From Candidatus Bathyarchaeota archaeon (lineage in GTDB: Archaea > Thermoproteota > Bathyarchaeia > Bathyarchaeales > DTEX01), in NCBI GenBank assembly GCA_018396995.1, contig JAGTQB010000015.1:1-35232 (forward strand): a stretch of DNA of 35,232 nucleotides. The letters are read 5' to 3'. The translations under genes and the position numbers were made by a program. The notes beneath the pieces were generated by a model. That model was given only the letters and a program-made list of their open reading frames with translations, did not search any database and was not told the DNA's origin. Below are positions 7,308 through 26,424 of the stretch, in pieces (within the stretch, counting starts at the first letter, position 1; each line of letters starts with the position of its first letter).

Positions 7308-8657
7308 TCACCTATTCATCTCATAGGCACGCTTAAGCAGCTTCTCACGAGCTTTTTCGGCTTCTTCTATAACCCACTTAACATTAACTGTTCTTATTTC
7401 CCTGTTCTCCATGATTATTTGCCCATTGATTATAGTTGTCTCTACGTCAGAGGCTTTTGCGGCATAAACTAGGTGGCTTGTCTCATTATATAATGGTTTC
7501 AGGTGGGGTCTCTGAAAATCAATTATTATTATGTCGGCTTTCTTTCCAATCTCAATTGTCCCTATCTGATCGCCCCAGAGAAGGGCTCTTGCCCCATCCA
7601 CAGTGGCCATTCTGAGAACAATTTCCGCCGGAAGAACCGTTGGGTCTCTACTAACCCCCTTATGCAGAAGAGCAGTGATCTTCATAACCTCAAACATGTC
7701 TGCAGAGTTATTCGAGCATGGGCTGTCCGTGCCAAGGGCAACTGTTATACCCTCTCTAAGCATATCTGGGACAGGGCTTATACCAGAGGCGAGCTTAAGG
7801 TTTGATACTGGGTTATGTGCAACTTTAACACCTTTTAATCTTAGTATCTCAATATCTCTCCTTGTTAAATGAACGCAGTGCGCTGCTATTACATCAGGGC
7901 CTAGAACCCCAAGCGAATCCATATATTCCACTATGCCCCCATCAACGTGGAGGTTGAATGATTCCCTAATTTTCTGCATTTCATCCTCCGTCTCCGCTAA
8001 GTGAGTATGCCACATGATTGGGCCGTGATCCCCCGCGTACTTCTCGTTCAGCTCTTTTGTCAAGATCCTCAGCTCCTTCATATATTCTGGGTCAACGGTG
8101 TATGGCGCGTGTGGGTCAACGCTTACGCGTATTCTTCCATCCGCCTCCCCATGCCACCTGGCTAACTCAATTAAGGCTTTAATGTCATGCTCCTTACGCC
8201 ATGAGAAGCATACATGGCCGACAACACCACGCAGCCCAGTCTCAGATATTGCTCTAGCCTCATTGTAGTCCTCCATATAATGATACATTGTGTTAATCGT
8301 TGTTGTCCCACTCATAATTGATTCTATTGCAGTTAGGAGTGAGCCTATGTAGATGTCGTATCCACTCATATGTCTCTCAACCGGCCAGACCCACCTCTCA
8401 AGCCACTCTTTTAGTGGATAATCATCCGCATAGCCTCTTAGAAGGCTCATGGCCATATGCTGGTGGGTGTTAATTAGCCCCGGCATAATGACCTTCCCCC
8501 TAGCATCAATCTTTTCATACCTAGGATACTTACGCTTAATTTCATCTGTCCTTCCAAGATCGATGATGGAGTCACCTTCGATGACAACAGCCCCGTCGCG
8601 TATAATCCCCTTACAGCTCATTGTGACAAGGGTTCCACCAAGTATCACGATCTCCAT
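7308..8657 (-). CDS. Amidohydrolase, S-adenosylhomocysteine/5-methylthioadenosine deaminase type
   Basis: About 449 residues of the metal-dependent amidohydrolase superfamily (TRZ/ATZ/MtaD branch). It shows the N-terminal beta strands VILGGTLVTM, then MPGLINTHQHMAMSL with the HxH metal pair (about residue 62), HTHLAETEDE with the third metal His, HCVHLT, and GTDSPCSNNSADMFEVMK with the metal Asp. The C-terminal strands GKKADIIIID complete the composite sandwich. Relatives deaminate S-adenosylhomocysteine, methylthioadenosine or adenosine in the cytoplasm, and in archaea the multi-substrate deaminase DadD replaces SAH hydrolase-type recycling. The substrate cannot be fixed here. The frame starts at 8675, but ATG 8657 has a GGTG site seven bases upstream and fits the family start. 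It is convergent with HEPN and divergent from the kinase at 8741. Confidence 0.85.
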   Translation of the reverse strand: MEIVILGGTLVTMSCKGIIRDGAVVIEGDSIIDLGRTDEIKRKYPRYEKIDARGKVIMPGLINTHQHMAMSLLRGYADDYPLKEWLERWVWPVERHMSGYDIYIGSLLTAIESIMSGTTTINTMYHYMEDYNEARAISETGLRGVVGHVCFSWRKEHDIKALIELARWHGEADGRIRVSVDPHAPYTVDPEYMKELRILTKELNEKYAGDHGPIMWHTHLAETEDEMQKIRESFNLHVDGGIVEYMDSLGVLGPDVIAAHCVHLTRRDIEILRLKGVKVAHNPVSNLKLASGISPVPDMLREGITVALGTDSPCSNNSADMFEVMKITALLHKGVSRDPTVLPAEIVLRMATVDGARALLWGDQIGTIEIGKKADIIIIDFQRPHLKPLYNETSHLVYAAKASDVETTIINGQIIMENREIRTVNVKWVIEEAEKAREKLLKRAYEMNR

Positions 8658-8740
8658 GGGCATACACCAAAGCAAAGATAATCGATTAACATTTTAAAGG
8701 GTTAGCCAAAGATACAAGAGGCTAGGTTCAGTCTCTTAAA

Positions 8741-9901
8741 ATGCGCGATATTTTGCCCAGCATAAACCAGATAAATCGAGAGATCTATGTAAGGAGATTG
8801 GGGAAGAGCTTTATGGAAATAAATCTCTCGGGGCTGGATAGTCTAAGAAAGTATTTCCAGGAGATTTATGGGCCTAATGCAGACGTTCTTAGGGTTATAG
8901 AGCTAACCTCTGGAAGGGAGAGGAGGGGCGAAGAGCTTAAGGGCTTCGGTTATGGTGTTCCATACTTAATTGAGGTATCGGTTAATGGAGAAGTCAGGAA
9001 GGTTGTCTTAGAGACCATAAGGCCGGGTGGATTTGGCCACGAACACTTCTCAGATAGGGCTCAGATACTCCTCTGGCAGCACTCAGCCTTTAACAACCTC
9101 CCGAGACACGTTAGGTCAATTGATGTTGGCGCCTTCACAACCAGCGGAACATTAAAGTCCCTTGGGGACTGCCGTGAGTTCTTTATACTGACCGAGTTCA
9201 TTGAGGGTAAACCCTACTACCTAGATTTAGAAGATATAAAGTCTCGTGGCGAATTAACGGATCTGGATGTTAAGCGCTGCCTAACGCTATCCGACTATCT
9301 TGTCGAAGTTCACTCGGTTAAGGGTGTTGGATTAGAATCGCTGTACATTAGGCGCGTCAGGGACCTTGTTGGTCACGGAGAATGTATAATGGGCTTAATA
9401 GATAGCTATCCACCTGGACTAGATTACGCGGACGAGAAGACTTTAATGGAGATTGAGCGCAAATGCATTGAGTGGCGCTGGAAGCTGAAGAAAAAAGCTT
9501 ATAGGTGCACTAGAGTTCACGGAGACTTCCACCCATGGAACATACTATTTCGCGAGGGAACAGACTTCACCGTTCTGGATAGAAGTAGGGGTGAGTGGGG
9601 TGAGCCGGCAGATGACCTGGCAGCCCTAACAATAAACTACTTATTTTATTCGCTCCAAGCCTACGGTGAAGTGAGGTGCCCCTTCAAAAGACTATTTGAA
9701 CTATTCTGGGAAAACTACCTAGATAAAACCGGGGATGAGGAAATTCTAACAGTCATACAACCATACTATGCTTGGAGGGGGTTAGTAATAGCATCACCAA
9801 TATGGTATCCAAACCTAACAAAAGAGACAAGAACAAGAATCTTCAACTTCATAAAAAGCATACTTGAGACGGAAAAGATCGATATCAAATCGATTTTTTA
9901 A
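8741..9901 (+). CDS. Phosphotransferase of the APH/choline kinase fold
   Basis: A 386-residue protein with the aminoglycoside-phosphotransferase family catalytic loop VHGDFHPWNILF (about residues 264-275) and the metal-binding segment TVLDRSRGEWGEPADDLAAL (about 283-302), in which the second conserved Asp and the final DDLA are present. The N-terminal kinase lobe is visible as the YLIEVSVNGEVRKVVLETIR strands with the Gly-rich FGYGVP ahead of them. Such enzymes phosphorylate small molecules (aminoglycosides, homoserine, choline, sugars) with ATP; archaeal members are mostly of unknown substrate and are not evidence of antibiotic resistance. There is no clear ribosome site before the ATG, so a leaderless message or an internal start is possible. 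It lies just before the ABC transporter promoter. Confidence 0.75.
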   Translation: MRDILPSINQINREIYVRRLGKSFMEINLSGLDSLRKYFQEIYGPNADVLRVIELTSGRERRGEELKGFGYGVPYLIEVSVNGEVRKVVLETIRPGGFGHEHFSDRAQILLWQHSAFNNLPRHVRSIDVGAFTTSGTLKSLGDCREFFILTEFIEGKPYYLDLEDIKSRGELTDLDVKRCLTLSDYLVEVHSVKGVGLESLYIRRVRDLVGHGECIMGLIDSYPPGLDYADEKTLMEIERKCIEWRWKLKKKAYRCTRVHGDFHPWNILFREGTDFTVLDRSRGEWGEPADDLAALTINYLFYSLQAYGEVRCPFKRLFELFWENYLDKTGDEEILTVIQPYYAWRGLVIASPIWYPNLTKETRTRIFNFIKSILETEKIDIKSIF

Positions 9902-9935
9902 CCCTCGGTCGTCGATGCTAATGTGAATAGAAAGT

Positions 9936-9948
9936 CTTATAAATTTTT
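9936..9948 (+). promoter_or_regulatory. TATA box of the peptide ABC transporter operon
   Basis: CTTATAAATTTTT matches the archaeal TATA element. A start point about 25 bases on (near 9965-9970) would place the GGGTGAT ribosome site and TTG 9980 within a leader of about 10-15 bases. The position also argues that the longer frame opening at 9923 is not the translated start. Confidence 0.55.
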
Positions 9949-9979
9949 ATGCGAGAAAGTAATGTCTTGGGTGATAACG

Positions 9980-12673
9980 TTGAAGGGTAAGAAGAGAATT
10001 TTAGCAGAATCCTTGCTGACTTTACTATTCTTAGGAGTTATTATATGGAGCATTCCAGTCTCCTACGCTCAGGTGCCAAAGGGTCCTTGGGTCGACGAGG
10101 TTGTTTTCTCTGTAGAAACGGATGAGGCGAAGACTGTAGATATGCTGCTTAAGAATGAGATTCAGGTTTACTTTAGGGATATAAGGGATCCGAAGCTCTT
10201 TGAGAAGATAAAGGCTTCGCCAGACCTCTGGTACGTAACGTCATATGGATTATACTTTGAATTAACGTTTAATCCAGTGGGGCCAGAGTTTCCCGCTACT
10301 GGCAAATTGAATCCATTCTCCGTCCCACGGATAAGGGAGGCAATGAACTATTTAGTTGATAGAAAGTATATTTGTGATGAGATAATGGCTGGAATGGCCG
10401 TACCTAAGTACACGGTTTTAACACCAGCCTTTCCAGACTACGCAAGATATGCAGATGTGGTTAAGGAAATTGAAAAGGAATATAGCTATAACTTCGAAAA
10501 GGCTAGGGAAATAATCACCGAGGAGATGATTAAGCTCGGCGCCGAGCTAAGAGATGGGAAATGGTACTATAAGGGTGAACCAGTTACGATAATATTCATT
10601 ATTAGAGTTGAAGATCAGAGGAGAGCTATCGGTGATTACGTGGCTTCACAGCTCGAGAAGCTAGGCTTCACGGTAGATAGGCAATATAAGACTAGCAGAG
10701 AGGCAGCGCCAATCTGGATAAGGGGAAACCCAGCTGATGGAAAATGGCACATTTATACTGGAGGATGGATAGTAACCGCTGTTTCTAGGGATGACGCAGA
10801 TACCTTTGGCTTCTACTATACGCCAAGGGCTGGTTTAGGACCCCTATGGAGCGCTTATAAACCAGCACCAGAATTCGATTACGTAGCCGGTAAGTTATGG
10901 ACTAGAGATTTTAGAACCATTGAAGAAAGAAACGACCTTATGAAGAAAGCTTTAACGCTTTCGATGAAGGATTCTGTAAGAGTATGGTTGGTTAACCAGA
11001 TAGCTCCCTGGCCCGCTAGAAAAGAAGTATCACTGACATATGACCTGGCAGCGGGCTTCTCTGGTGCAAGATTATGGCCATATACTATTAGATACGTTGA
11101 TAAGGTTGGCGGCACAATAAAAATAGCGTCTACAGATTTGCTTGTGGATCCGATAAACCCCGTAGCTGGAAGCGACTGGATATATGACGCTATGTTCTAT
11201 AGGGCATTATCTGACCCAGCCCTTATACCAGATCCATTCACTGGACTCTATTGGCCTCAGAGAGTTAAAAAGGTAGAGGTTTTCGTTGAGAAAGGGTTGC
11301 CTGTTGGAGTTACATTGGACTGGGTATCCTTAAAGTTTATCGATGAGATAACGGTGCCAACGGATGCATGGTATGACTGGGATCCTGTGAAGCAGGAGAT
11401 AATTTATGCTCCTCCTGGAACAAAAGCAAAAACGAAAACCATAGTCTATTATGATGATAACTTGTTCAACATAAAGTTTCATGATGGTAGTAAACTCTCG
11501 ATAGCAGACATAGTCTTCGCCTACATATTGACCTTTGACAGGGCTAAACCAGAAAGCCCAGTCTTCGATGAATCATATATTCCAGCATTTGAGGCCTTCA
11601 GAGAATACTTTAAGGGCTTCAAAATAGTAAGCACTAGTCCACTAGTCATAGAATACTATTCAGATCAGCTATATCTTGACGCTGAATGGATAGCGTGGGC
11701 GGCCGCAATGGCGTTCTATCCAGAGTACCTATATGGCCCAGCCCCATGGCACATGGTCACTATTGGCTGGCTCGCTGAGTCGGAGAATAAGCTAGCCTTC
11801 TCGGCCGATAAAGCTGAGAGCCTTAAAGTTGAGTGGATGAGCTACGTTGCTGGCCCCTCAATACCAATACTAGCAGAATATCTGGATAAAGCTATTAGAG
11901 AAAAGTTTATACCCTATAAGAACGTTTTAGGTAAATATGTCACCGAAGCAGAAGTCCTTGAAAGGTACAATAATTTAAAGAAGTGGTATGAAGCGAAAGG
12001 TCACTTCCTCATTGGCAATGGTCCATTTTATCTAGATAAAGTTGACCCGACCGCTAGGATAGTTGTGCTAAAGGCCAATAGGGAATTTATTGATCCCGCT
12101 GATAAGTGGCTTAAATTCTCTAAGCCAATGATTCCAGAAGTCAAGATTACTGCTGTACCCACCATTGTGCCGGGCTTACCTGCGGAGATCACGATTTCAG
12201 TAACATTTGAGGGTAAACCATATGGAAAAGCGGACATGAGCTACATTAAGTATATGATTACCAGCCCGACAGCAACTTTGACTGGGGCAGCTGAAGCTGT
12301 GGCGGATGGAAAATGGGTTATTAAGCTCAAGTCGGAGGAGACGTCACTATTATCTGCTGGGGCGGTTAGCATAGATGTAATAGCTGTCTCGAAATTGGTT
12401 GGTATGCCGGTGTTAGCGAGCGGAACAGCTATTGTTATGAGTGAGACGGAATACCTAATGAGCGAGCTGGCAAAAGCTAAAGCCGACTATGAAGTGAAAG
12501 TGTCTGAGCTAAAAACTGGACTAGAAAAGAAGATTGCTGAGCTTAGTGCGAAGATCGATGAAATGGGAGGCGTGATTGGCGTAGCTACAACTGCCATATA
12601 TGTTGGCGTAATAGCCATAATACTCTCCATAGTGGCGATAATACTCCAAATATTGATGAGAAGATTTAAGTAA
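9980..12673 (+). CDS. ABC transporter extracellular solute-binding protein, family 5 (peptide/oligosaccharide type)
   Basis: About 897 residues, much longer than the roughly 550 of bacterial DppA/OppA. From TTG 9980 the N terminus is a clean signal peptide: MKGKKR, a hydrophobic core, then VSYAQV, with cleavage probably after Ala. Two stretches resemble SBP_bac_5 sequence: about residues 35-370 (including FSVPRIREAMNYLVDRKYIC), and from about 375 (GGTIKIASTDLLVDP) through KFHDGSKLSIADIVFAY. The typical N-lobe thus lies in the second half. Next come a beta-rich Ig-like domain (about 705-810), a coiled coil with SELKTGLEKKIAELSAKIDE, and one C-terminal membrane helix ending in RRFK. This tethers the binding protein to the outer face of the membrane, as is common in archaea. 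It is the first gene of the importer operon. The substrate may be peptides or oligosaccharides and cannot be decided. Confidence 0.88.
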   Translation: MKGKKRILAESLLTLLFLGVIIWSIPVSYAQVPKGPWVDEVVFSVETDEAKTVDMLLKNEIQVYFRDIRDPKLFEKIKASPDLWYVTSYGLYFELTFNPVGPEFPATGKLNPFSVPRIREAMNYLVDRKYICDEIMAGMAVPKYTVLTPAFPDYARYADVVKEIEKEYSYNFEKAREIITEEMIKLGAELRDGKWYYKGEPVTIIFIIRVEDQRRAIGDYVASQLEKLGFTVDRQYKTSREAAPIWIRGNPADGKWHIYTGGWIVTAVSRDDADTFGFYYTPRAGLGPLWSAYKPAPEFDYVAGKLWTRDFRTIEERNDLMKKALTLSMKDSVRVWLVNQIAPWPARKEVSLTYDLAAGFSGARLWPYTIRYVDKVGGTIKIASTDLLVDPINPVAGSDWIYDAMFYRALSDPALIPDPFTGLYWPQRVKKVEVFVEKGLPVGVTLDWVSLKFIDEITVPTDAWYDWDPVKQEIIYAPPGTKAKTKTIVYYDDNLFNIKFHDGSKLSIADIVFAYILTFDRAKPESPVFDESYIPAFEAFREYFKGFKIVSTSPLVIEYYSDQLYLDAEWIAWAAAMAFYPEYLYGPAPWHMVTIGWLAESENKLAFSADKAESLKVEWMSYVAGPSIPILAEYLDKAIREKFIPYKNVLGKYVTEAEVLERYNNLKKWYEAKGHFLIGNGPFYLDKVDPTARIVVLKANREFIDPADKWLKFSKPMIPEVKITAVPTIVPGLPAEITISVTFEGKPYGKADMSYIKYMITSPTATLTGAAEAVADGKWVIKLKSEETSLLSAGAVSIDVIAVSKLVGMPVLASGTAIVMSETEYLMSELAKAKADYEVKVSELKTGLEKKIAELSAKIDEMGGVIGVATTAIYVGVIAIILSIVAIILQILMRRFK

Positions 12674-12703
12674 CCATTACCTTTTTATTTATCCTTATGT
12701 CTA

Positions 12704-12714
12704 TTTTTTTCTTT
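12704..12714 (+). terminator. T-rich tract between binding protein and permease genes
   Basis: TTTTTTT followed by CTTT lies in the 63-base gap after the binding-protein gene, with more T-rich sequence just upstream. Archaeal termination is driven by such tracts. A leaky terminator here would give more binding protein than membrane components, as in many importers. Inferred from sequence composition only. Confidence 0.35.
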
Positions 12715-12736
12715 AGATCATAAGGAAAGAAATTAG

Positions 12737-13813
12737 ATGTTTGCAGGTATCCTGAAATATATATTGAAGCGTAGCATTATACTCTTCCTAACCGTAGTTG
12801 TAGCAGTTTATATAACAATTTGGATTGCGAACATGGGCGGATATGTTGATGAAATAGTTAAAAGTGATATACTTCTCTCAGTTTCACAAAGCATTCGGCA
12901 AAACCCAGCATTTAAGGGGCTGAACGAGACCCAAATCACGAAAATAATAAACGAGGTTTACAATAATGAGCTAAAGAAAATAGGTTTTGATAAACCCTTC
13001 ATATATAGAAGCTTCATTTACTTGAAGGATGCGATAACACTCAACCTCGGGAGAGCACTATTCTTGAGTAGTGACAGTGGATCAAAAAATGTCCGCATAA
13101 TAATTCTTGAAAGATTACCAAATACTGTTCTCCTATTCACAACAACACAGATGATCCTATTCTTTATAGGGCTATTTTTCGGTCTATTTCTTTCAAGAAG
13201 ATATGGGAGCTTTCTGGATAGACTTTCAGTTCTACTTGCACCCCTTTCATCCCTGCCAGGATGGTTCTATGGAATCTTCTTAATATTGATTTTTGCCTCC
13301 CTATTTAGGTTGTGGTTTGGGTGGGGACTACCTTATGGTGGAATGGTTGATGCTCCTCCACCCATAGATAAGGTGGCGTACGCGTTAAGCGTTCTAAAGC
13401 ACATGATCTTGCCAGTACTTTCATGGCTAATATCATATTCATTCATAAACGTTTATGTGAGGAGAACCTTCTTTCTAATGTTTTCAAGTGAGGACTACGT
13501 GGAGTTCGCGAAGGCTAAGGGCTTACCTGACTCTCTAATACAGAGGAGATACATACTCAGACCAACGTTACCGCCGATAGTAACCGATTTCTCATTAACG
13601 TTAATTGGATCATGGATGGGAGCAATAATAACTGAGAGAGTATTTAACTGGCCTGGAATAGGAAGCCTATTCTACGCGGCGTCTGTAATGTTTGATACAC
13701 CGGTGCTTGTGGGATTAGTTGTTATATACGCATATCTCCTTGCGGCAACAGTATTTGCTCTTGAATTCGTATATGTGATCTTGGATCCAAGAATTAGGAC
13801 TGGAGGAGCATAA
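12737..13813 (+). CDS. ABC transporter permease, DppB/OppB type
   Basis: A 358-residue inner subunit with an N-terminal membrane helix, a periplasm-side loop, and the binding-protein-dependent transport domain. That domain has about five more helices and the conserved EAA-like loop YVEFAKAKGLPDSLIQRRYI (about residues 254-273), which contacts the ATPases, followed by ITERVFNWPGIGSLFYAA, the OppB signature. It forms half of the translocation pore. AAGGA lies about ten bases before the ATG. It is followed by the DppC gene after three bases. Confidence 0.92.
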   Translation: MFAGILKYILKRSIILFLTVVVAVYITIWIANMGGYVDEIVKSDILLSVSQSIRQNPAFKGLNETQITKIINEVYNNELKKIGFDKPFIYRSFIYLKDAITLNLGRALFLSSDSGSKNVRIIILERLPNTVLLFTTTQMILFFIGLFFGLFLSRRYGSFLDRLSVLLAPLSSLPGWFYGIFLILIFASLFRLWFGWGLPYGGMVDAPPPIDKVAYALSVLKHMILPVLSWLISYSFINVYVRRTFFLMFSSEDYVEFAKAKGLPDSLIQRRYILRPTLPPIVTDFSLTLIGSWMGAIITERVFNWPGIGSLFYAASVMFDTPVLVGLVVIYAYLLAATVFALEFVYVILDPRIRTGGA

Positions 13814-13816
13814 GAA

Positions 13817-15223
13817 TTGTCGAAAGTTAAAGGATTTCTCAGCCAATTACTGCTCTACAAGTCCGCGCTCATCGGATTAATAATCATAATTTTTTTAATT
13901 GGGCTATCCATCTATACTGTCATAACAATACCATATGAGGAGGCCACGCGGCTTTGGAGGGCTGGTGAACAGTATTGGCTAGATAATCCACGTAATGCTC
14001 TACCCTCATGGGTGAACATCTTTTCGCAAAAAAGGCTCCCGGAAACAATAATATTGAGTACAGAGAAGCCGCAGGTTGGCGTCTCCAAAGCTATTGTGTC
14101 AGCGCCGGGCGAAAGATTCAGCATAATTAAGGTGAAGTTTTCATTCAGATATGAATATGATGATTTTCCGAGCGAAATAAATCTGTTCCTTAAGGCAAGC
14201 TTTAATGAATCTAACCCCCACATAACAATCTACTGGGTTAAACCCGGCGGGGAGCAGATAACCCTGAAGTCGCTTTTAATATCTAGAGAAACGATGTATT
14301 ATATATCAAACGATGATAGACTAGCTGAGGAGATTAGGGGCTATATCTCTAAGAAAATTAACAGGACCATAGAGTATGAAGCGCCAGTCACCCTTCTACT
14401 TTTTGCAGAAGAGGATAATAGTGTTCTGAAACCAGACACAGCTAAGGTAATGAAGGGAGTATATGAACTTTGGATAGAAGGCATTATCTTTGAGACTAAG
14501 GTGGATCTAGATGCTAAATTGGTGATCTACGGTAAGGTTTATGGGCTTGCCGGTACAGATCACCTGAGAAGGGATCTAAGTATAGCGCTTCTATGGGGTA
14601 CACCTATAGCTCTCTCTTTTGGCGTTACAGCCTCGGTCACCGTGGCATTGATACAGATGTTTATTGGGGCCCTCAGCGCCTGGTTTGGAGGAATCGCAGA
14701 TACCGTTTTGCAGAGGGTTACGGAGGTCTTTATGGTTCTCCCTTTCCTACCGCTATTAATAATGATATCCACATTCTATAAGTTTAATATATGGGTGCTC
14801 TTGGCAGTCGTTATAATACTTACGGTATTTGGTAGCGGGGTCAAAAATTATAGGGCAATGTTCATGCAAATCAAGGAGTTCCCATATGTGGAGGCCGCTA
14901 GAGCTTATGGAGCTGGTAACCTTAGAATCATATTGCTCTATTTAATTCCGAAGGTTCTTCCAACGATAATTCCATCAATAGTTATTTCAGTTGCGGATTT
15001 CGTCTTCTTGGAGGCTGCATTAGCAATACTTGGTTTAGGTGATCCATTAGCTCCTACATGGGGGAAAATAATTGATGACGCCTATGAACATGGAGCACTA
15101 TATAAGGGGTTATATTACTGGGTTCTGCAGCCATCAATAATGTTGGCATTAACTTCGCTGAGCTTTGCAATATTAGGCTTTGCACTTGATAAAATATTTA
15201 ACCCAAGGTTAAAGGAGATATAG
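13817..15223 (+). CDS. ABC transporter permease, DppC/OppC type, with a large extracytoplasmic insertion
   Basis: A 468-residue second pore subunit. The C-terminal part (from about residue 245) is a standard DppC transport domain with the EAA loop YVEAARAYGAGNLRIILLYL and the signature AALAILGLGDPLAPTWG. Between the first membrane helix (about residues 12-34) and this domain lies roughly 200 residues of beta-rich, soluble-looking sequence, where bacterial DppC has only a short linker. The insertion must face outwards and could dock the membrane-tethered binding protein. The TTG start has AGGAG in the end of the dppB gene as its ribosome site, so translation is coupled. The stop codon abuts the ATG of the next gene. 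Confidence 0.9.
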   Translation: MSKVKGFLSQLLLYKSALIGLIIIIFLIGLSIYTVITIPYEEATRLWRAGEQYWLDNPRNALPSWVNIFSQKRLPETIILSTEKPQVGVSKAIVSAPGERFSIIKVKFSFRYEYDDFPSEINLFLKASFNESNPHITIYWVKPGGEQITLKSLLISRETMYYISNDDRLAEEIRGYISKKINRTIEYEAPVTLLLFAEEDNSVLKPDTAKVMKGVYELWIEGIIFETKVDLDAKLVIYGKVYGLAGTDHLRRDLSIALLWGTPIALSFGVTASVTVALIQMFIGALSAWFGGIADTVLQRVTEVFMVLPFLPLLIMISTFYKFNIWVLLAVVIILTVFGSGVKNYRAMFMQIKEFPYVEAARAYGAGNLRIILLYLIPKVLPTIIPSIVISVADFVFLEAALAILGLGDPLAPTWGKIIDDAYEHGALYKGLYYWVLQPSIMLALTSLSFAILGFALDKIFNPRLKEI

Positions 15224-19115: not shown

Positions 19116-19703
19116 TTAACGGGTAATAATTAACTTTTCCCCCTCCTTAAATCTTTCCTTCTTAACTAATCGGCCCTCATGGTCTATCTCGCCGCGCTTA
19201 ATCCTTGTAGTAGATATTGGAATATTGTCCTCTGCCAGAACCATATCTATAGCAATTATTTCCAGTGGCTTAAGCCCCCTCCTTACCCTTAAAGTGTTTA
19301 TTTCTCTCGCCCTGCTCTCTGTCTCCCTACTTACAACTATCGCCTCAATCTCCGGGTTACGTAGGGCTGGCCCATAAGGATCATTTAACGGCACAATCTT
19401 AGCCCTCTTTAAAACGCCTAAATCCTTAAGAAAGCGCAAGATTCTTCTAAGCCTAACCCCATAAGGTGCGATTTCATGGTTCTTTCGCAAACTCTTAGCA
19501 AACTCGTCTGTAGTTAAACCTATTATAACTCTCTCGCCATAATCAAAGGCCGCCTTCAATAAGAATTTATGTCCTTTATGGAGCTCATCAAACGTCCCGC
19601 CTACACCAACTACTCTGAATGATTTTTTAGGGCCTCTACTTTGTTGAGACGCCGTATCAATTCGCTTTAAACTAATCATTCCCATACACCCTAATTTAAA
19701 CAT
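19116..19703 (-). CDS. coaD: Phosphopantetheine adenylyltransferase, archaeal type
   Basis: A 195-residue nucleotidyltransferase of the HIGH/T(x)GH superfamily: VGVGGTFDELHKGHKFLL (residues about 32-49) carries the ATP-binding T-x-x-x-x-H-x-G-H, and the C-terminal ISTTRIKRGEID contains the ISSTRI-like motif. It transfers AMP from ATP to 4'-phosphopantetheine to make dephospho-CoA in the cytoplasm. The ATG at 19703 has GGAGTGA five bases before it, overlapping the end of the ECF gene, so the N-terminal extension of about 25 residues is probably real though not conserved. It lies four bases after the membrane protein gene and beside a divergent pantothenate kinase, which supports a CoA locus. 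Confidence 0.9.
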   Translation of the reverse strand: MFKLGCMGMISLKRIDTASQQSRGPKKSFRVVGVGGTFDELHKGHKFLLKAAFDYGERVIIGLTTDEFAKSLRKNHEIAPYGVRLRRILRFLKDLGVLKRAKIVPLNDPYGPALRNPEIEAIVVSRETESRAREINTLRVRRGLKPLEIIAIDMVLAEDNIPISTTRIKRGEIDHEGRLVKKERFKEGEKLIITR

Positions 19704-20566: not shown

Positions 20567-21430
20567 ATGGAAGACTTTATTATTGGTCTAGATATTGGTG
20601 CGAGTTTAACCAAAATAGTCCTTGTGAATGAGAGACTTGAAATTATTAGGCGCATGGTTCTCCCATCTATGGATCCAAGGGAAACGGCGTTAAGAGCACT
20701 TAACAATCTTTTTAGTACCATTGACTCAGAGGATAGAGCTAAAGTGAGGATGACTCTATCTACTGGTGGAAGATCAAGATTCCTAGGCAATGAGATCCTT
20801 GGTATACCCATTATGAGGGTCGATGAGATAAAGGCTATTGGGTTCGGCGGGCTAACTCTTTCCGGAAGGAATAACTGCTTAGTTGTTAGTGCTGGAACTG
20901 GCACGGCTCTAGTAGCTGTATATGATGGTGGGCGTGCTATAAGACATGTTGGCGGCACTGGTGTTGGAGGAGGAACAATCCTAGGCCTATCTCGTAGGAT
21001 GATTGGTGTATACGATTTTAAAGTTTTGGAGGAGATGGCTTTAAGGGGTGATCCAAGTAAAGTGGATCTGACTATTAATGATATAGTCGGCGGCTCAATT
21101 GGCATCCTACCAGCAAATGTAACAGCCTCAAACTTTGGGAAGATTTTAGGCGAGGCGAGCGCCGAGGACGTAGCAGCTGGCATATTTAACATGGTTTCAC
21201 AGACAATAGCCGTCGTCGCGGTAATGGCTGCAAAGGCGTATAATTTAGAGGATAACGTGGTAGTTACAGGGATGCTCGCTAAAAGCAGGTTGATTTCAAG
21301 GATTATACGGGAGACTACGGATTTATTCTCTGTTAACGTAATAATCCCGGATAACTGTGAGCTCGCAGGCGCAATTGGAGCAATCGCTGTGTACCTCAAA
21401 GAGAAGGGTGAAAGTGATAGTAAAATTTAA
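20567..21430 (+). CDS. coaW: Type II pantothenate kinase
   Basis: A 287-residue ASKHA-fold kinase. The phosphate-1 loop IIGLDIGASLTKIVLV is at residues 5-20, a catalytic acidic residue in MRVDEIKAIGFGG at 83-95, and the phosphate-2/adenosine loops in SAGTGTALVAVYDGG and RHVGGTGVGGGTILGLS (about 108-142). The later GDPSKVDLTINDIVGG and ANVTASNFGKIL align in order with my recollection of Staphylococcus aureus CoaW, including the T/S-A-x-N-F-G block. The enzyme phosphorylates pantothenate, the first step of CoA synthesis from the vitamin. Most archaea instead use pantoate kinase and phosphopantothenate synthetase, so this points to salvage. Next to coaD and an ECF S component. The Rpo5 gene follows after 50 bases. 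Confidence 0.88.
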   Translation: MEDFIIGLDIGASLTKIVLVNERLEIIRRMVLPSMDPRETALRALNNLFSTIDSEDRAKVRMTLSTGGRSRFLGNEILGIPIMRVDEIKAIGFGGLTLSGRNNCLVVSAGTGTALVAVYDGGRAIRHVGGTGVGGGTILGLSRRMIGVYDFKVLEEMALRGDPSKVDLTINDIVGGSIGILPANVTASNFGKILGEASAEDVAAGIFNMVSQTIAVVAVMAAKAYNLEDNVVVTGMLAKSRLISRIIRETTDLFSVNVIIPDNCELAGAIGAIAVYLKEKGESDSKI

Positions 21431-21480: not shown

Positions 21481-22020
21481 TTGCCCATAGATCCGATACT
21501 TGAGAGGAAAGCAAATGTAATCATTGAGCTTAGGAACTATAAGGTTCTGGGTAGGGAGGAGAGTGAGGAGGGCGTTTACACTCTCGTTGAGGATAGAGAG
21601 GGGAAGAAGGTTCTCATATGGACTGCCTCTATCTCGGATATAGGCATTAAGCATGTGAATAATATGGCGAAGTATATGAGGGAGAAGGGGGCTGAGGGCG
21701 GCATAATAGTGAGCAACAAATATTCACAGTCTGCTAAGACACAGGCGAGGAAGGAGAATATCGAGTTAATCCCACAGGACTTCCCCTCATTCAACATATT
21801 CAAACATTACCTGGTTCCGAGACATGAAATCCTGTCGCCTGAGGAGAAACAGGCCCTGTTAGAAAGGTACCGCATAGAGCCATGGAAGCTGCCGCGCATA
21901 AAGGCATCGGATCCAGCTGTACGCTTAATTGGGGCTAAGCCCGGGGACATAATCAAGATAGTTAGGCGGAGCCCAACTGCTGGGGAGAGCATATATTATC
22001 GGTATGTTGTTGAAGGTTGA
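21481..22020 (+). CDS. rpo5: DNA-directed RNA polymerase subunit Rpo5 (RpoH/RPB5) with an N-terminal jaw-like domain
   Basis: A 179-residue protein. Residues about 109-179 are a textbook archaeal Rpo[41 protein letters not shown] and [17 protein letters not shown]. Usual archaeal subunits are only about 75-90 residues, so the first 108 are extra. They resemble the N-terminal jaw domain of eukaryotic RPB5 (an endonuclease-like fold): [18 protein letters not shown] lines up with VGIKTIKVYCQRM of human RPB5, and [17 protein letters not shown] with the MTPSAK segment, in the same order and spacing. The TTG start has CGAGGTG 6-7 bases upstream. rpoB is not adjacent, unlike the usual archaeal rpoH-rpoB order, so this could be the main subunit relocated or a second copy. 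It is convergent with the winged-helix gene after 5 bases. Confidence 0.88.
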
Positions 22021-22025
22021 TGGGT

Positions 22026-22520
22026 CTAAATTCCTTTAAGGGCTCGGATTATATCCTCTGTTCTCCTAACCCCCAGCTCCGTTATCCTATATTCCCCCTC
22101 AGAGACCCTTTCAACTAGACCCCCCTCAATGAGCTTTGGTAGTTCATTAGTTATGGTTTTCTTAGCTTTACCGGTCAGCCTCGAGAGTTCAGTAACGGAT
22201 AATGTATCTTTGTTGAGTTTCCCAATCCTATAGCCGACATAAGCTCCCAGAAGAGCCAAGCACACGGCATTTCTCGCAGACAACTCTACACCCAGTTTTA
22301 TTATCGGCCCACTAGAGGATATCTCAATTAGGCCGGATAAATCGCCCATAATTTTTGCTAGGTCCGGCGTATATGTAATTCTCCTCAGCAGCTCTATATT
22401 TGGGCAAGCCTGTGATATAAAGCGCAATAATGTCTCAAAGACCTGCTCAGAGCTCCCTTCAAAATCCACCTTTATATCGCCGACCTCCAAATGAACTTTG
22501 ACTGCACCCTTTCCGCTCAA
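22026..22520 (-). CDS. Winged-helix protein of an uncharacterised archaeal family (paralogue 2)
   Basis: A 164-residue protein in three parts. The N-terminal beta-strand plus helix VKVHLEVGDIKVDFEGSSEQ is followed by FETLLRFISQ. A middle segment has ISSSGPIIKLGVELSARNAV and AYVGYRIGKL. The C-terminal winged helix is LSVTELSRLTGKAKKTITNE followed by GLVERVSEGEYRITELG. The same order of motifs is found in its neighbour (22517-23035) and more distantly in 23955-24440, so these are paralogues. The start overlaps the end of the neighbour by 4 bases, so the two are translationally coupled. The winged helix suggests DNA binding; the N-terminal part may dimerise or bind a ligand. No named family recognised. 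Confidence 0.7.
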   Translation of the reverse strand: MSGKGAVKVHLEVGDIKVDFEGSSEQVFETLLRFISQACPNIELLRRITYTPDLAKIMGDLSGLIEISSSGPIIKLGVELSARNAVCLALLGAYVGYRIGKLNKDTLSVTELSRLTGKAKKTITNELPKLIEGGLVERVSEGEYRITELGVRRTEDIIRALKGI

Positions 22521-23035
22521 CCCCTATCCTCCTCACCCCTAATCTTTGGTAATACTTCGTCGAGAAAGAACTTTAACCCGAGTGTTGTCACTTTATACTC
22601 GCCACGTCCAACCCTCTCAACGAGCCCCATATCAGTTAATTCACTGAGGCGGGCTGCAACAGTTCCACCTTTACATCCCGTAGCGGCGGTTAAGTCGGCT
22701 ACTGAGAGGGAGTCCTTCTCCAGGCGGCCAATCCTATAGCCGACATACGCCTTAACCAGGCTAACTAGTATGGCGTTTCTATCGCCGCCAAGCTTGCTTC
22801 TTGGAACAGTTATAACGGGTCCCTCCGGCGTAATGGCTATTATTCCCTTAACATTCCTCAGGAGTTCCTCTATATCTATTGATAGGGTTAGCTGTGTAGC
22901 GAGGTCATATGCTGGCAGAACCCTACTGATGAAGCTTAGGAGCGCCCTTATAACCTCATCCGGCCTTCCAGTGAATTTCGCCTCAATATCCTTATACCTC
23001 ACGGTTAAATCTAAATTTTCCCCTCTCTCCCCCAT
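22517..23035 (-). CDS. Winged-helix protein of an uncharacterised archaeal family (paralogue 1)
   Basis: About 172 residues, parallel to 22026-22520: LTVRYKDIEAKFTGRPDEVI plus ALLSFISRVLP, then a middle ITPEGPVITVPRSKLGGDRN and AYVGYRIGRLEKDSLS, then the winged helix LTAATGCKGGTVAARLSELT with GLVERVGRGEYKVTTLG. The frame is open to 23071, but a TATA-like box on this strand lies at 23069-23080, which would put the transcript start near 23048. ATG 23035 (GGAG three bases before) or GTG 23044 are therefore the likely starts. It is the first gene of a two-gene unit and divergent from 23214. Probably a regulator; its target is unknown. Confidence 0.7.
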   Translation of the reverse strand: MGERGENLDLTVRYKDIEAKFTGRPDEVIRALLSFISRVLPAYDLATQLTLSIDIEELLRNVKGIIAITPEGPVITVPRSKLGGDRNAILVSLVKAYVGYRIGRLEKDSLSVADLTAATGCKGGTVAARLSELTDMGLVERVGRGEYKVTTLGLKFFLDEVLPKIRGEEDRG

Positions 23036-23068
23036 TTTCTCCACAAATCCCCTTCTACAATAATCTTT

Positions 23069-23151
23069 CAAAAATATATATCCGGGATTTTGTATCTAAA
23101 AGATTTTGCCAGACTAGTGCTGGCCTCTCTAGTGAAAAAGATATATTTTTG
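23069..23151. promoter_or_regulatory. Symmetrical divergent promoter with inverted TATA-like boxes
   Basis: CAAAAATATATA (23069-23080) and GATATATTTTTG (23140-23151) form an inverted repeat about 60 bases apart. Read outwards, each is a TATA-like box for one of the flanking winged-helix genes (minus start near 23035, plus start 23214). The symmetry may only reflect two promoters, or it may be a shared operator for autoregulation. Confidence 0.45.
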
Positions 23152-23213
23152 GAGGAGAGAATCTTCTAGTGTGAATATTATTTCATTTAGAAATGGTAGT
23201 TGAGGGCTAGAAG

Positions 23214-23948
23214 ATGAGTTCTTCGAAGTTTCTCCCCAGGCGCTTAAGCTTCCCAAAGATATGTGAAGTGCTGGTTGGATATTTAAATGCTGGGGCGGAT
23301 AAAGAGTATGTTAATGTAAGCAATGTTGCTGACAAGACTACAGTCACTCTATATAACATAAGCCGTAACAACAACTTCTTTAAGAGCTGGGGCTTTATAG
23401 AGGAGAGTGAAAAAGAGCAGGGAAAATATAAGCTGACTAAGGAGGCAGCCGAGTTTGCATACGCTTATAAAATAGACCCGGATGGTAGCAAAACTAGGCT
23501 TCTCTTAAGAAACATTCTCTCGAAGGATGAGGTTTTGGTTGAGTTCGTTAAGCGGGTAAAGAGTGAGGGTATGGATAGGGAAGCGGCATTAATAGATTTG
23601 CCGAGGGTTGTGGGAGACCTAAGAGCCGATAAGGTTGGGCTGAACGCCTTCCTAGATTTGATAGCATATGCCTTCGAAATAGACTGGCTAACAACTCCAG
23701 TAAAGAAAGTGGCTAAGTCGGTGAGGAGAACAGCTGCGTTGGAGGTTAAAGTTGCTAAGCCACATGTTAAGAAGGCTGAGGTTAAGGCGCCACCAATATT
23801 TCAGGCTCTCCCAGAGCCCAGAACTAACATAACGATAAACCTGACGATCACCCCTGAAACTACCCCATCGATGCTGAAGGAGTATATTAGGGCTATGTTA
23901 GAGGCGTATGAAGAGTATGTGCGGAGTAGGGCTGGGGAGGGAGAATAA
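23214..23948 (+). CDS. Winged-helix-like hypothetical protein with a C-terminal strand-helix module
   Basis: A 244-residue protein. The N-terminal part (about residues 12-90) looks like a winged helix, with VNVSNVADKTTVTLYNISRN, a recognition-helix-like FFKSWGFIEES and a wing GKYKLTKEAAEFA. A helical middle follows, then a basic, Ala/Pro-rich linker (about 175-205: VKVAKPHVKKAEVKAPP). The C-terminal module NITINLTITPETTPSMLKEY plus IRAMLEAYEEYV resembles in layout the strand-helix N-terminal domain of the three neighbouring paralogues. I do not recognise a family. GAGGG lies about eight bases before the ATG. It is divergent from 22517-23035 and convergent with 23955-24440 (6-base gap). Confidence 0.7.
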   Translation: MSSSKFLPRRLSFPKICEVLVGYLNAGADKEYVNVSNVADKTTVTLYNISRNNNFFKSWGFIEESEKEQGKYKLTKEAAEFAYAYKIDPDGSKTRLLLRNILSKDEVLVEFVKRVKSEGMDREAALIDLPRVVGDLRADKVGLNAFLDLIAYAFEIDWLTTPVKKVAKSVRRTAALEVKVAKPHVKKAEVKAPPIFQALPEPRTNITINLTITPETTPSMLKEYIRAMLEAYEEYVRSRAGEGE

Positions 23949-23954
23949 AACTGT

Positions 23955-24440
23955 TTACGCTATTTTTCTTATTCTCGGCAAAACATCCTCCTCAATCCAC
24001 CGCTCACCCTTAGGCGTTAGTGCCCACTTAGGCTCCCTTGGAGAGGGCTTAAAGACTAAGCCCTTTTTAAGCATCTCATTTAATCTTGAGGAGGGTTGAA
24101 TAGGTATTCCAGAATATTTTAAAAGGCGCTCTATATGAGAGGGCCTGAGATATTTATCCTTTGAGAAGTATAGAATGAGGCCAATAGCTTCACAATGTGT
24201 GACGCAACTTGGATCCTTCAGCAACAATATGGGCCCTTCATCAGTATATTTCACAATACTGTTGAATTTCTCCTGTTTATTCCCCTCACCCATAGTAATT
24301 TTTTCTGAAAGGAGGGATTCTAAATTGCTGAAGAAGTTTTCGGGCAATCTTTCCAAGGTTTCAAGGAGCTCGTTTGGCGTTGCCCCCTCAATTATTACTT
24401 TACCGAAAGGCATATTTATCTCAGCTTGAATCTTCCCCAC
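23955..24440 (-). CDS. Winged-helix protein of an uncharacterised archaeal family (divergent paralogue 3)
   Basis: 161 residues from GTG. The N-terminal strand-helix INMPFGKVIIEGATPNELLE, the middle YTDEGPILLLKDPS with a following hydrophobic helix, and the C-terminal winged helix LRPSHIERLLKYSGIP through KWALTPKGERWIEEDVLPRI repeat the architecture of paralogues 1 and 2, including the xxEGPIxxL turn, but with low identity and an added VTHC. It lies 76 bases after gatE on the same strand and could be read through from it. Function unknown; DNA binding is inferred from the winged helix. Confidence 0.65.
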   Translation of the reverse strand: MGKIQAEINMPFGKVIIEGATPNELLETLERLPENFFSNLESLLSEKITMGEGNKQEKFNSIVKYTDEGPILLLKDPSCVTHCEAIGLILYFSKDKYLRPSHIERLLKYSGIPIQPSSRLNEMLKKGLVFKPSPREPKWALTPKGERWIEEDVLPRIRKIA

Positions 24441-24516: not shown

Positions 24517-26424
24517 CTATTTTGACGCTATTTTCTCAGAGATTTTCTCTTTGAGAATTCTGCTGACTACATCTGGTTTAACCCTACCCCTGAGTTCTCT
24601 CATGATGGCGCCCATTAATGCGCCGAATGCGCCTAGACCCTTCTCCGTTATGAGAGCATTATTCCTGCTAACATATTCTTCCACAATTTTATGGAGCTCC
24701 TCCTCTGGCATCATCATTAAACCGAGCTCCTTCACCGCATCCATTGGGTCAGCTCCCTCGTGGGTGGTGAGCCACTTGAGTATTTCTGGTATAGCCTCCT
24801 TAGTGGTCTTCTCCTGCCCAACAAGCCTAAATGTCTCAATTATCTGCTCGTCTGTTAACGCGTTAACGTTAAAGCCATCACGCTTAAGAGCCTTGAGGGT
24901 CTCGGTGAGGACTGTGGCTACAACTGTTGGTGTGACTCCAGTCTCCTTAACAATCACTTCAAAGAGATCATCATACTCCGTGTCCAGTAACTGCCTAGCG
25001 AGCTTCTCATTTATATTATAGGATTTTATGAGCTCTCTAACCCTCTCCTCCAAGGGTCTCGGCAGCTGGGCCCTAACCCTCTCTATAAATTCCTTAGTCA
25101 CCTTTACTGGCGGTATATCCGTTTCCGGGTACATTCTAGCAGCCCCAGGTCTGGGTCTCATGTACCTAGTTGTCCCATCAGGGTTTGCGGCGCGCGTTTC
25201 CTCAGGAACCCCCCTAAGCGCCTCCCTCGCCCTTTCAACAACCGCCCTTAAGGCATCCCTGGCATTCTCAGCTCCACCAGCTACGAGGACGATTGCGTCC
25301 TCCTCAGCTGCATTCACCATTCTCCTGAGTTCAGCCACCTCCTCATCTGTAACGCCATAGGATTTTATCTCATCGGTATGTATTATCCCACCAACTCTGC
25401 CCCAGAACTTCGCCCTATCAGCCAATTCCCCGCCGAATCTCAGTCCCGGAATAAGCTCGGAGCCAAGTAAGCCAGCGAACTTCGGCAGCTTCACAGCCAA
25501 TATTATCTCGCCTCTGTTTATCGCATTCCTGAGAACGCGGCACTTAGTCCCTCTGAAAACCGGTGTTACATCAATAAAGTCCTCTCGGATATCTTCCTCC
25601 CTCAGCCCACGTCTCCTCAATTCATCCCGCATTTTAAGCAGGTTTAGCTGACGTTGAACCTCATATTCAACAACCTTTGATATAAGCTCGAGCTCCTGGA
25701 CGCCTTTTATCTCTACTAGGGCTCCATCTCTAATTGAGATGTTCAGATCTTGCCTTATTGTTCCTATCCCACGCCTAACCCTTTTAGTCGCCCTCAATAT
25801 CTTCCCTATGGCCAAGGCAACCTTTTCGGCTTCTCCTGGACTATTTATCACTGGTCCGGTCGCCACTTCGATGAGGGGTATGCCAAGCCTATCAATCCTA
25901 TATATAACGGTGAGGCCTTCCTCCCCAATTTTCCTAGCGGCATCCTCCTCGAGGCTCACGTGCTCTATCGGTATCTCCTTCCCATCAACTGTTATTGAAC
26001 CATTTAATGCTACAACACAAGTCCTTTGGAAGCCCGTTGTGTTCGAGCCGTCTATCACAATTTTGCGCATAACATATATCTCATCCACGGGCTTCGCTCC
26101 CATCATGAGGGCAACCATTAAGGCTGTCTCTAACGCCTCATTATTAAGGTCATGGGGAGGCTCCTCATCCATCTCCACTAGACATGACGTCTCGGTATCC
26201 GCCTCATATAGAATTCTTACACCCTTCTGGAACTCAAAGTATGCCGCCGGATCTACTTGACCAAGTTCGCTTTGGGTTGGTCTAAGTCTCCGGAGGAACG
26301 TTATCTCCGGCTCGCATTTGAATAGCTCTGGTCTACAGCTGCAGAAGAGCTTCTCGCGAGTTGCCAGTTGCTGGTGTATCTCTAAGCCAACCTTAAGCCC
26401 AATCTCCCTATAATCAACATTCAA
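24517..26424 (-). CDS. gatE: Glutamyl-tRNA(Gln) amidotransferase subunit E
   Basis: A 635-residue archaeal-specific subunit of GatDE. It phosphorylates Glu-tRNA(Gln) and amidates it with ammonia from GatD, giving Gln-tRNA(Gln). The GatB-like cradle starts with LKVGLEIHQQLATREKLFCS and includes RIDRLGIPLIEVATGPVINS. The AspRS-like GAD insertion that distinguishes GatE from GatB follows (around 280-400, with GELADRAKFWGRVGGIIHTD). The helical and YqeY-like tail domains end in RELRGRVKPDVVSRILKEKI. The length is typical. The ATG overlaps the TGA of gatD by 4 bases (translational coupling), as expected for a stoichiometric complex. Confidence 0.96.
   Translation of the reverse strand: MNVDYREIGLKVGLEIHQQLATREKLFCSCRPELFKCEPEITFLRRLRPTQSELGQVDPAAYFEFQKGVRILYEADTETSCLVEMDEEPPHDLNNEALETALMVALMMGAKPVDEIYVMRKIVIDGSNTTGFQRTCVVALNGSITVDGKEIPIEHVSLEEDAARKIGEEGLTVIYRIDRLGIPLIEVATGPVINSPGEAEKVALAIGKILRATKRVRRGIGTIRQDLNISIRDGALVEIKGVQELELISKVVEYEVQRQLNLLKMRDELRRRGLREEDIREDFIDVTPVFRGTKCRVLRNAINRGEIILAVKLPKFAGLLGSELIPGLRFGGELADRAKFWGRVGGIIHTDEIKSYGVTDEEVAELRRMVNAAEEDAIVLVAGGAENARDALRAVVERAREALRGVPEETRAANPDGTTRYMRPRPGAARMYPETDIPPVKVTKEFIERVRAQLPRPLEERVRELIKSYNINEKLARQLLDTEYDDLFEVIVKETGVTPTVVATVLTETLKALKRDGFNVNALTDEQIIETFRLVGQEKTTKEAIPEILKWLTTHEGADPMDAVKELGLMMMPEEELHKIVEEYVSRNNALITEKGLGAFGALMGAIMRELRGRVKPDVVSRILKEKISEKIASK

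Follow-up and report, generated by a model that had tools for sequence, protein, structure and literature searches.

HerA-NurA is a DNA-end-resecting machine that most accounts treat together with Mre11-Rad50 (PMC7690668). In Sulfolobales, the herA-mre11-rad50-nurA operon is induced in a DNA-damage response that is centred on Orc1-2 and in which TFB3 and ArnA/ArnB also figure (PMC10470591). We found no description in the literature of how DNA-end resection is controlled in archaea outside Sulfolobales, and none of winged-helix genes linked to nurA-herA in open-access publications (most subscription journals lay outside this scope).

Bathyarchaeia are globally abundant and mostly uncultured. 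Here, we describe a cluster of four small genes, A to D, on contig C7 of a 1.46-Mb Bathyarchaeia MAG; the contig (35,232 bases) is referred to below as the window. With moderate confidence, we propose that A, B, and D, and C as a member of a separate family, act in archaea as small winged-helix regulators of transcription with a tie to DNA-end processing by HerA-NurA. For A to D, the support is indirect and comes from homology, from linkage in other lineages, and from conserved elements that precede the genes of the cluster. Conserved candidate controllers or partners of HerA-NurA can now be named across Bathyarchaeia and other Thermoproteota, along with a short DNA site, and the cluster offers a handle on several unannotated protein families of Bathyarchaeia.

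Gene layout and proteins of the cluster

The four ORFs that the earlier note had placed in this region are all present. Proteins A (164 amino acids [aa]; positions 22026 to 22520), B (172 aa; 22517 to 23035, with the longest ORF extending to 23071), and D (161 aa; 23955 to 24440) are encoded on the minus strand, and protein C (244 aa; 23214 to 23948) is encoded on the plus strand. B and the start of A overlap by 4 nt on the minus strand, and we therefore read B-A as one operon. C lies back to back with B and runs toward D, ending 6 nt from it. D is found 76 nt downstream of gatE (24517 to 26424, minus strand), a context gene that, as in many Bathyarchaeia, shares the strand of D and immediately precedes it. 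Since C and D are convergent and D follows gatE, the locus has a single divergent promoter, with B/A facing C, and not two pairs of genes meeting around a symmetrical divergent promoter, as had been proposed.

The symmetry of this promoter region is nevertheless real, as two AT-rich arms of an inverted repeat (16 nt each, 88%) lie at 23064 to 23079 and at 23141 to 23156, where they probably represent the TATA regions of B and C, respectively. The arms are not conserved in the B-C intergenic regions of relatives, and we rejected them as an operator. What is kept instead is an element of the TTAAAAGATTTTGCC type (at about 23096 to 23109), which emerged from the aligned B-C intergenic regions of the genus as a candidate operator or promoter element and has a single match in the window (0.15 expected).

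A and B share 40% identity (E = 1.5e-29) and are each other's sole matches in a search of the whole genome. D joins them by profile only, as a remote paralogue: the D profile (alignment of 29) matches that of A/B over the full length, including the N-terminal module and the EGP hairpin (probability, 98.8%; E = 6e-17). In a tree of 112 proteins, A, B, and D fall into separate orthologous groups (with a program warning of long branches). Scans of Pfam, NCBIfam, PADLOC, and PHROGs gave weak matches that were essentially confined to the winged helix; for A, those in Pfam were generic helix-turn-helix (HTH) matches covering residues 102 to 157 only. In the Pfam and NCBIfam scans, no curated family of winged-helix regulators (MarR, ArsR, HVO_A0261_N, or cas_HTH) scored above its cut-off. 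Judged by their sequences, none of A to D is claimed by any curated family, in keeping with the original description of A, B, and D as three paralogues of an unnamed family.

The layout described for these paralogues, with an N-terminal strand-helix module, an EGP turn, and a C-terminal winged helix, is seen in the AlphaFold2 model of B (pLDDT, 89.1). The model places strands at residues 8 to 14 and 17 to 23, followed by helices, a hairpin at the EGP turn (strands 66 to 69 and 72 to 75), and a winged helix at about residues 85 to 149 that is followed by a C-terminal helix. A is built in the same way, with a beta-hairpin/helix module at the N terminus, an EGP-type hairpin, and a C-terminal winged helix. 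In the AlphaFold2 models of both B and C, a helix-turn-helix is followed by a beta wing, the order that defines the winged-helix fold. Foldseek neighbours were winged-helix proteins with weak scores (E of about 0.004 or worse), and the closest solved chains by sequence and fold were transcription regulators (MarR, CRP/FNR, IdeR, and AspA), matched weakly and over the winged helix only.

Protein C had been described as an inverted version of this layout. It does have an N-terminal winged helix, but the strand-helix module reported at its C terminus is modelled as a helix only: in the AlphaFold2 model (pLDDT, 81.9), the winged helix is followed by a helical domain, and a disordered linker leads to the C-terminal helix. 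Profile comparison places C outside the A/B/D family, showing no homology apart from a weak match of generic HTH type (5.8% and 0.1%); the term "inverted" thus describes a likeness of layout only, and these profiles rule out the idea that C is a rearranged A/B/D protein. An alignment of 20 C sequences revealed a conserved C-terminal motif, INLTISPE..LKEYIKA. The same 20 members gave scattered weak matches only in Pfam; a sequence search of solved structures found no relative of C, and a fold search scored poorly throughout, with matches limited to generic winged helices and methyltransferase N-domains. C is present in 23 of 61 genomes (the window genome and 60 relatives) and is rare among 299 sampled Thermoproteota genomes (13 genomes, two of them with weak matches). 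C is not a recent insertion, since two distant families (L218 and L220) also carry it inside this cluster.

Archaeal Rpo5 usually measures about 80 aa, and the Rpo5 encoded beside the cluster (21481 to 22020, plus strand) has 179 aa. Its C-terminal part matches archaeal Rpo5, its residues 44 to 177 align with residues 67 to 205 of eukaryotic RPB5 (E = 1e-20) in an alignment that reaches the N-terminal jaw region, and its N-terminal part matches Pfam Mrr_cat just above the cut-off. A paper from 2026 on the small subunits of archaeal RNAP treats an extended Rpo6, in passages where no extended Rpo5 is named. Rpo5 adjoins the cluster only within the genus, and the link between the two that had been suggested is not supported. 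At 20567 to 21430 (plus strand), the window also encodes a Fumble-type (type II pantothenate kinase-like) protein (PF03630, well above the cut-off), to our knowledge an unusual protein for an archaeon, and a gene for a nucleotidyltransferase (PPAT-like) lies near it at 19116 to 19703.

Distribution and linkage to nurA-herA

Within the set of 61 genomes, A/B-type genes occur in 46 genomes and D in 49, making D, which is near single copy, the most widespread paralogue in Bathyarchaeia. Among the 299 Thermoproteota genomes, D-type matches were found in 70 and A/B-type matches in 216, many of the latter being weak generic winged-helix matches. Both genome sets include many incomplete MAGs, and the loci of named MAGs partly duplicate genomes in the sets. 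The recurrence of the A-D cluster across families of the phylum far exceeds chance, and the A/B/D paralogue set is ancient, having been kept over class-level distances in Thermoproteota. The cluster is therefore not merely the local expansion that the earlier note had supposed, and its conservation in relatives, on which that note had made its reading depend, is confirmed. A contig filed as Candidatus Njordarchaeum (L179; JAUQYT010000007.1) carries a Bathyarchaeia-like D together with GatE and is possibly misbinned.

Other small winged-helix families recur at these loci. The gene immediately preceding D in most other Bathyarchaeia is F1a, and F1b, with matches of its type in 80 of the 299 Thermoproteota genomes, is transcribed divergently from nurA-herA. 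The profiles of F1a and F1b are related (97.6%), and the A/B profile shows a weaker kinship to F1b (82%) and F1a (55%). By eye and in the profile alignments, an N-terminal strand-strand-helix stretch is common to F1a, F1b, and A/B/D. A comparison of F1b with solved structures gave chance-level matches only. A further small family with a winged-helix region, F2 (L244:7062-7493, plus strand), is found upstream of a different nurA-herA-like pair; it is present in 47 of the 61 genomes and adjoins a second NurA-like match in at least five of them (G023, G025, G033, G034, and G046). The N terminus of F2 includes, by eye, a strand/helix-like stretch. Its profile similarity to F1a (10.6%) and F1b (46%) is weak and confined to the winged-helix region, and for this reason we do not claim common descent.

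The linkage to nurA-herA was found in several ways. When the neighbours of 30 loci were clustered, 22 loci had nurA-type genes and 25 had herA-type genes, and a Pfam check of the examined loci placed NurA (PF09376) mostly above the cut-off and HerA (PF01935) above the cut-off. The recurring neighbour families in this clustering did not include mre11 or rad50. Outside the window's order, strong A/B matches were found in 58 genomes, of which 53 have nurA on the same contig; the distance between A/B and nurA is at most 3.1 kb in 52 of these 53 (median, 541 bp), the lone exception being G209, at 132 kb. Six loci (L221 to L226) contain same-strand runs of the form D-B-(A)-(F1a)-nurA-herA, with F1a in L221, and in many other loci F1b diverges from nurA-herA, with A/B alongside. 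Both nurA and herA thus stand next to the family in many relatives. An intein (PF14890; E = 2e-16) splits the HerA gene of one locus (L218:3565-6156, minus strand).

Within the order, F1b and F1b-linked nurA are either both present or both absent (p = 1e-12 by Fisher's test), and B co-occurs with nurA (p = 8e-5), where the p values are descriptive because the genomes are related, just as the counts include related, nonindependent MAGs. In the window genome itself, F1b-nurA-herA is on contig C1 (L232) and is unlinked from A to D on C7. Two further tandem nurA-herA pairs were observed in L242 (G000:C15:6000-21483), at 7751 to 10542 and 11160 to 13849; with the F1b-linked pair, the window genome has at least three.

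Between F1b and nurA, we noticed a dyad, TTGNNCA-N9-TGNNCAA, that closely precedes a TATA-like box ahead of nurA (one instance is TTGTACATGTTGTTCATGCACAA); in the window genome, it takes the form of a longer palindrome, TTGCGCATCTTGGCCAAGATGCGCAA (L232:9198-9223). The pattern TTGNNCA-N8-13-TGNNCAA was present in 42 of 59 distinct F1b-nurA intervals, compared with a mean of 0.39 and a maximum of 3 in dinucleotide shuffles, and in 0 of 192 regions upstream of D or F1a. As the dyad was found and tested on the same intervals, the shuffles gauge its strength and not its independence, and a whole-genome search is the better control. There, an extended pattern had a match, usually one, in 41 of the 61 genomes, with three matches for the reversed control. 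Exact genome-wide matches sit at F1b-nurA wherever the position of F1b-nurA is known. In the examined loci, this holds for all 45 exact matches, 36 of them by automatic label; the remaining nine are in F1b, D, or A/B loci where the genes are unlabelled, at positions that fit an F1b start. F1b is the natural candidate for binding this dyad: regulators and their operators are typically arranged in this way, with a conserved dyad next to a conserved winged-helix gene, here one divergent from nurA-herA. Because the dyad adjoins F1b rather than A to D, it informs mostly on F1b.

The promoters of D and F1a have elements of their own. TTACGTA boxes occur upstream of D in other lineages (9 of 59, compared with 1.3 in shuffles [maximum, 4]), and many F1a and D genes have GTAAATYCTAAAARG about 40 to 50 nt ahead of their starts. 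This latter D-promoter element is unspecific genome-wide (26 matches, with a similar number for the reversed control) and may simply represent a core promoter. As the marker of a wider regulon, CGTAAATYCTAAAARG was rejected, as its genome-wide matches, about ten of which are at D or F1a promoters, were no more numerous than those of the reversed control.

Regulators, subunits, or a self-contained system

Winged helices, deep conservation, and conserved promoter elements make regulators the most likely reading of this unnamed family, as first suggested. The C-terminal winged helices of the paralogue set would bind the conserved dyad and promoter elements, and dimers, perhaps heteromers of different paralogues, would form through the N-terminal hairpin-helix modules. 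The set may control the level of HerA-NurA, the DNA-end-resecting helicase-nuclease, as well as that of its own operons. In the window genome, where F1b stands beside nurA-herA on another contig, A to D would either work in trans or have their own promoters as main targets. Against regulation of HerA-NurA, A to D are kept without a detected F1b-nurA of the L232 type in G005, G006, and G007, which belong to the same genus as the window genome, and D persists alone, without B and without F1b-linked nurA, in genomes such as G032, G038, and G043.

Two to five distinct paralogues kept in a row are unusual for plain regulators and would also fit a multi-subunit complex. In the main alternative, these proteins instead belong to the HerA-NurA machine, as subunits with a structural or loading role: heteromers of A, B, and D would detect DNA ends or junctions and pass DNA on to the ring of HerA and the nuclease NurA. 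Such subunits would account for the same-strand runs and overlaps with nurA-herA at deep distances, for the joint retention of several distinct orthologous paralogues, and for the second family, F2, beside a second NurA-like match in the genomes listed above. We consider them a serious but unlikely explanation, as A to D are unlinked from nurA-herA in the window genus, D survives the absence of both B and F1b-linked nurA, and the operator-like dyad conserved beside F1b is what would be expected of a regulator. More speculatively, a multi-subunit complex of A, B, D, and F1b, joined through the N-terminal modules, could serve a separate HerA-NurA system of archaea as its obligate partner. Such a complex would not only bind the TTGNNCA dyad but also load the resection machine or gate it; to us, this seems rather doubtful.

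The frequent position of D beside gatE, its retention without F1b-linked nurA in some genera, and the conserved elements in the cluster's own promoters could alternatively mean that A to D make up a DNA-binding system of their own, autoregulatory or nucleoid-type, and that its nearness to nurA-herA merely reflects a housekeeping segment conserved in archaea (gatDE, nurA, and herA). This is improbable given that, outside the order, adjacency to nurA-herA is more persistent than adjacency to gatE and that F1b and B follow nurA in being present or absent. A regulator cassette of a defence system, as raised in the earlier note, or of a mobile element would fit PADLOC matches to the winged helices of Csa3, CARF, and AbiEi. 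It is very unlikely, since these matches span the generic winged helix only (A and B matched partially, C weakly, and D not at all, with no full-length match), F1b pattern matches in viral contigs yielded no confirmed relative, the cluster is present in most genomes of whole families, and the recurring neighbours of the 30 loci include no defence genes.

Comparison with known systems

As candidate regulators, A, B, and D resemble those of the MarR, ArsR, and CRP types in having a winged helix in the C-terminal half, where their best sequence and fold neighbours are found. Unlike in those regulators, the winged helix is accompanied by an N-terminal hairpin-helix module and an EGP hairpin that are unmatched there, and all matches are below the cut-off. 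The best Pfam match, the haloarchaeal winged-helix domain HVO_A0261_N (PF25213), aligns over about 50 residues with the winged helix alone (A, E = 2e-4 and 21 bits; B, E = 2e-6 and 28 bits; cut-off, 35 bits). KITE proteins (ScpB, MukE, and Nse1/3) bind kleisins and consist of two tandem winged helices, whereas the AlphaFold2 model of B has one, which sets B apart from them.

The nurA and herA genes found in this linkage are true counterparts of those in the canonical HerA-NurA operon (PMC7690668), with PF09376 and PF01935 above the cut-off in most examined loci. Judging from the recurring neighbours, the apparent difference is that winged-helix genes occupy the place of mre11-rad50 in the examined loci. 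The likeness to the DNA-damage regulation of Sulfolobales (PMC10470591) lies in a control layer, here a candidate one, placed on the same repair machine. Its components differ, as Orc1-2, TFB3, and ArnA/ArnB are different proteins from the set of winged-helix paralogues with its own dyad that we describe here.
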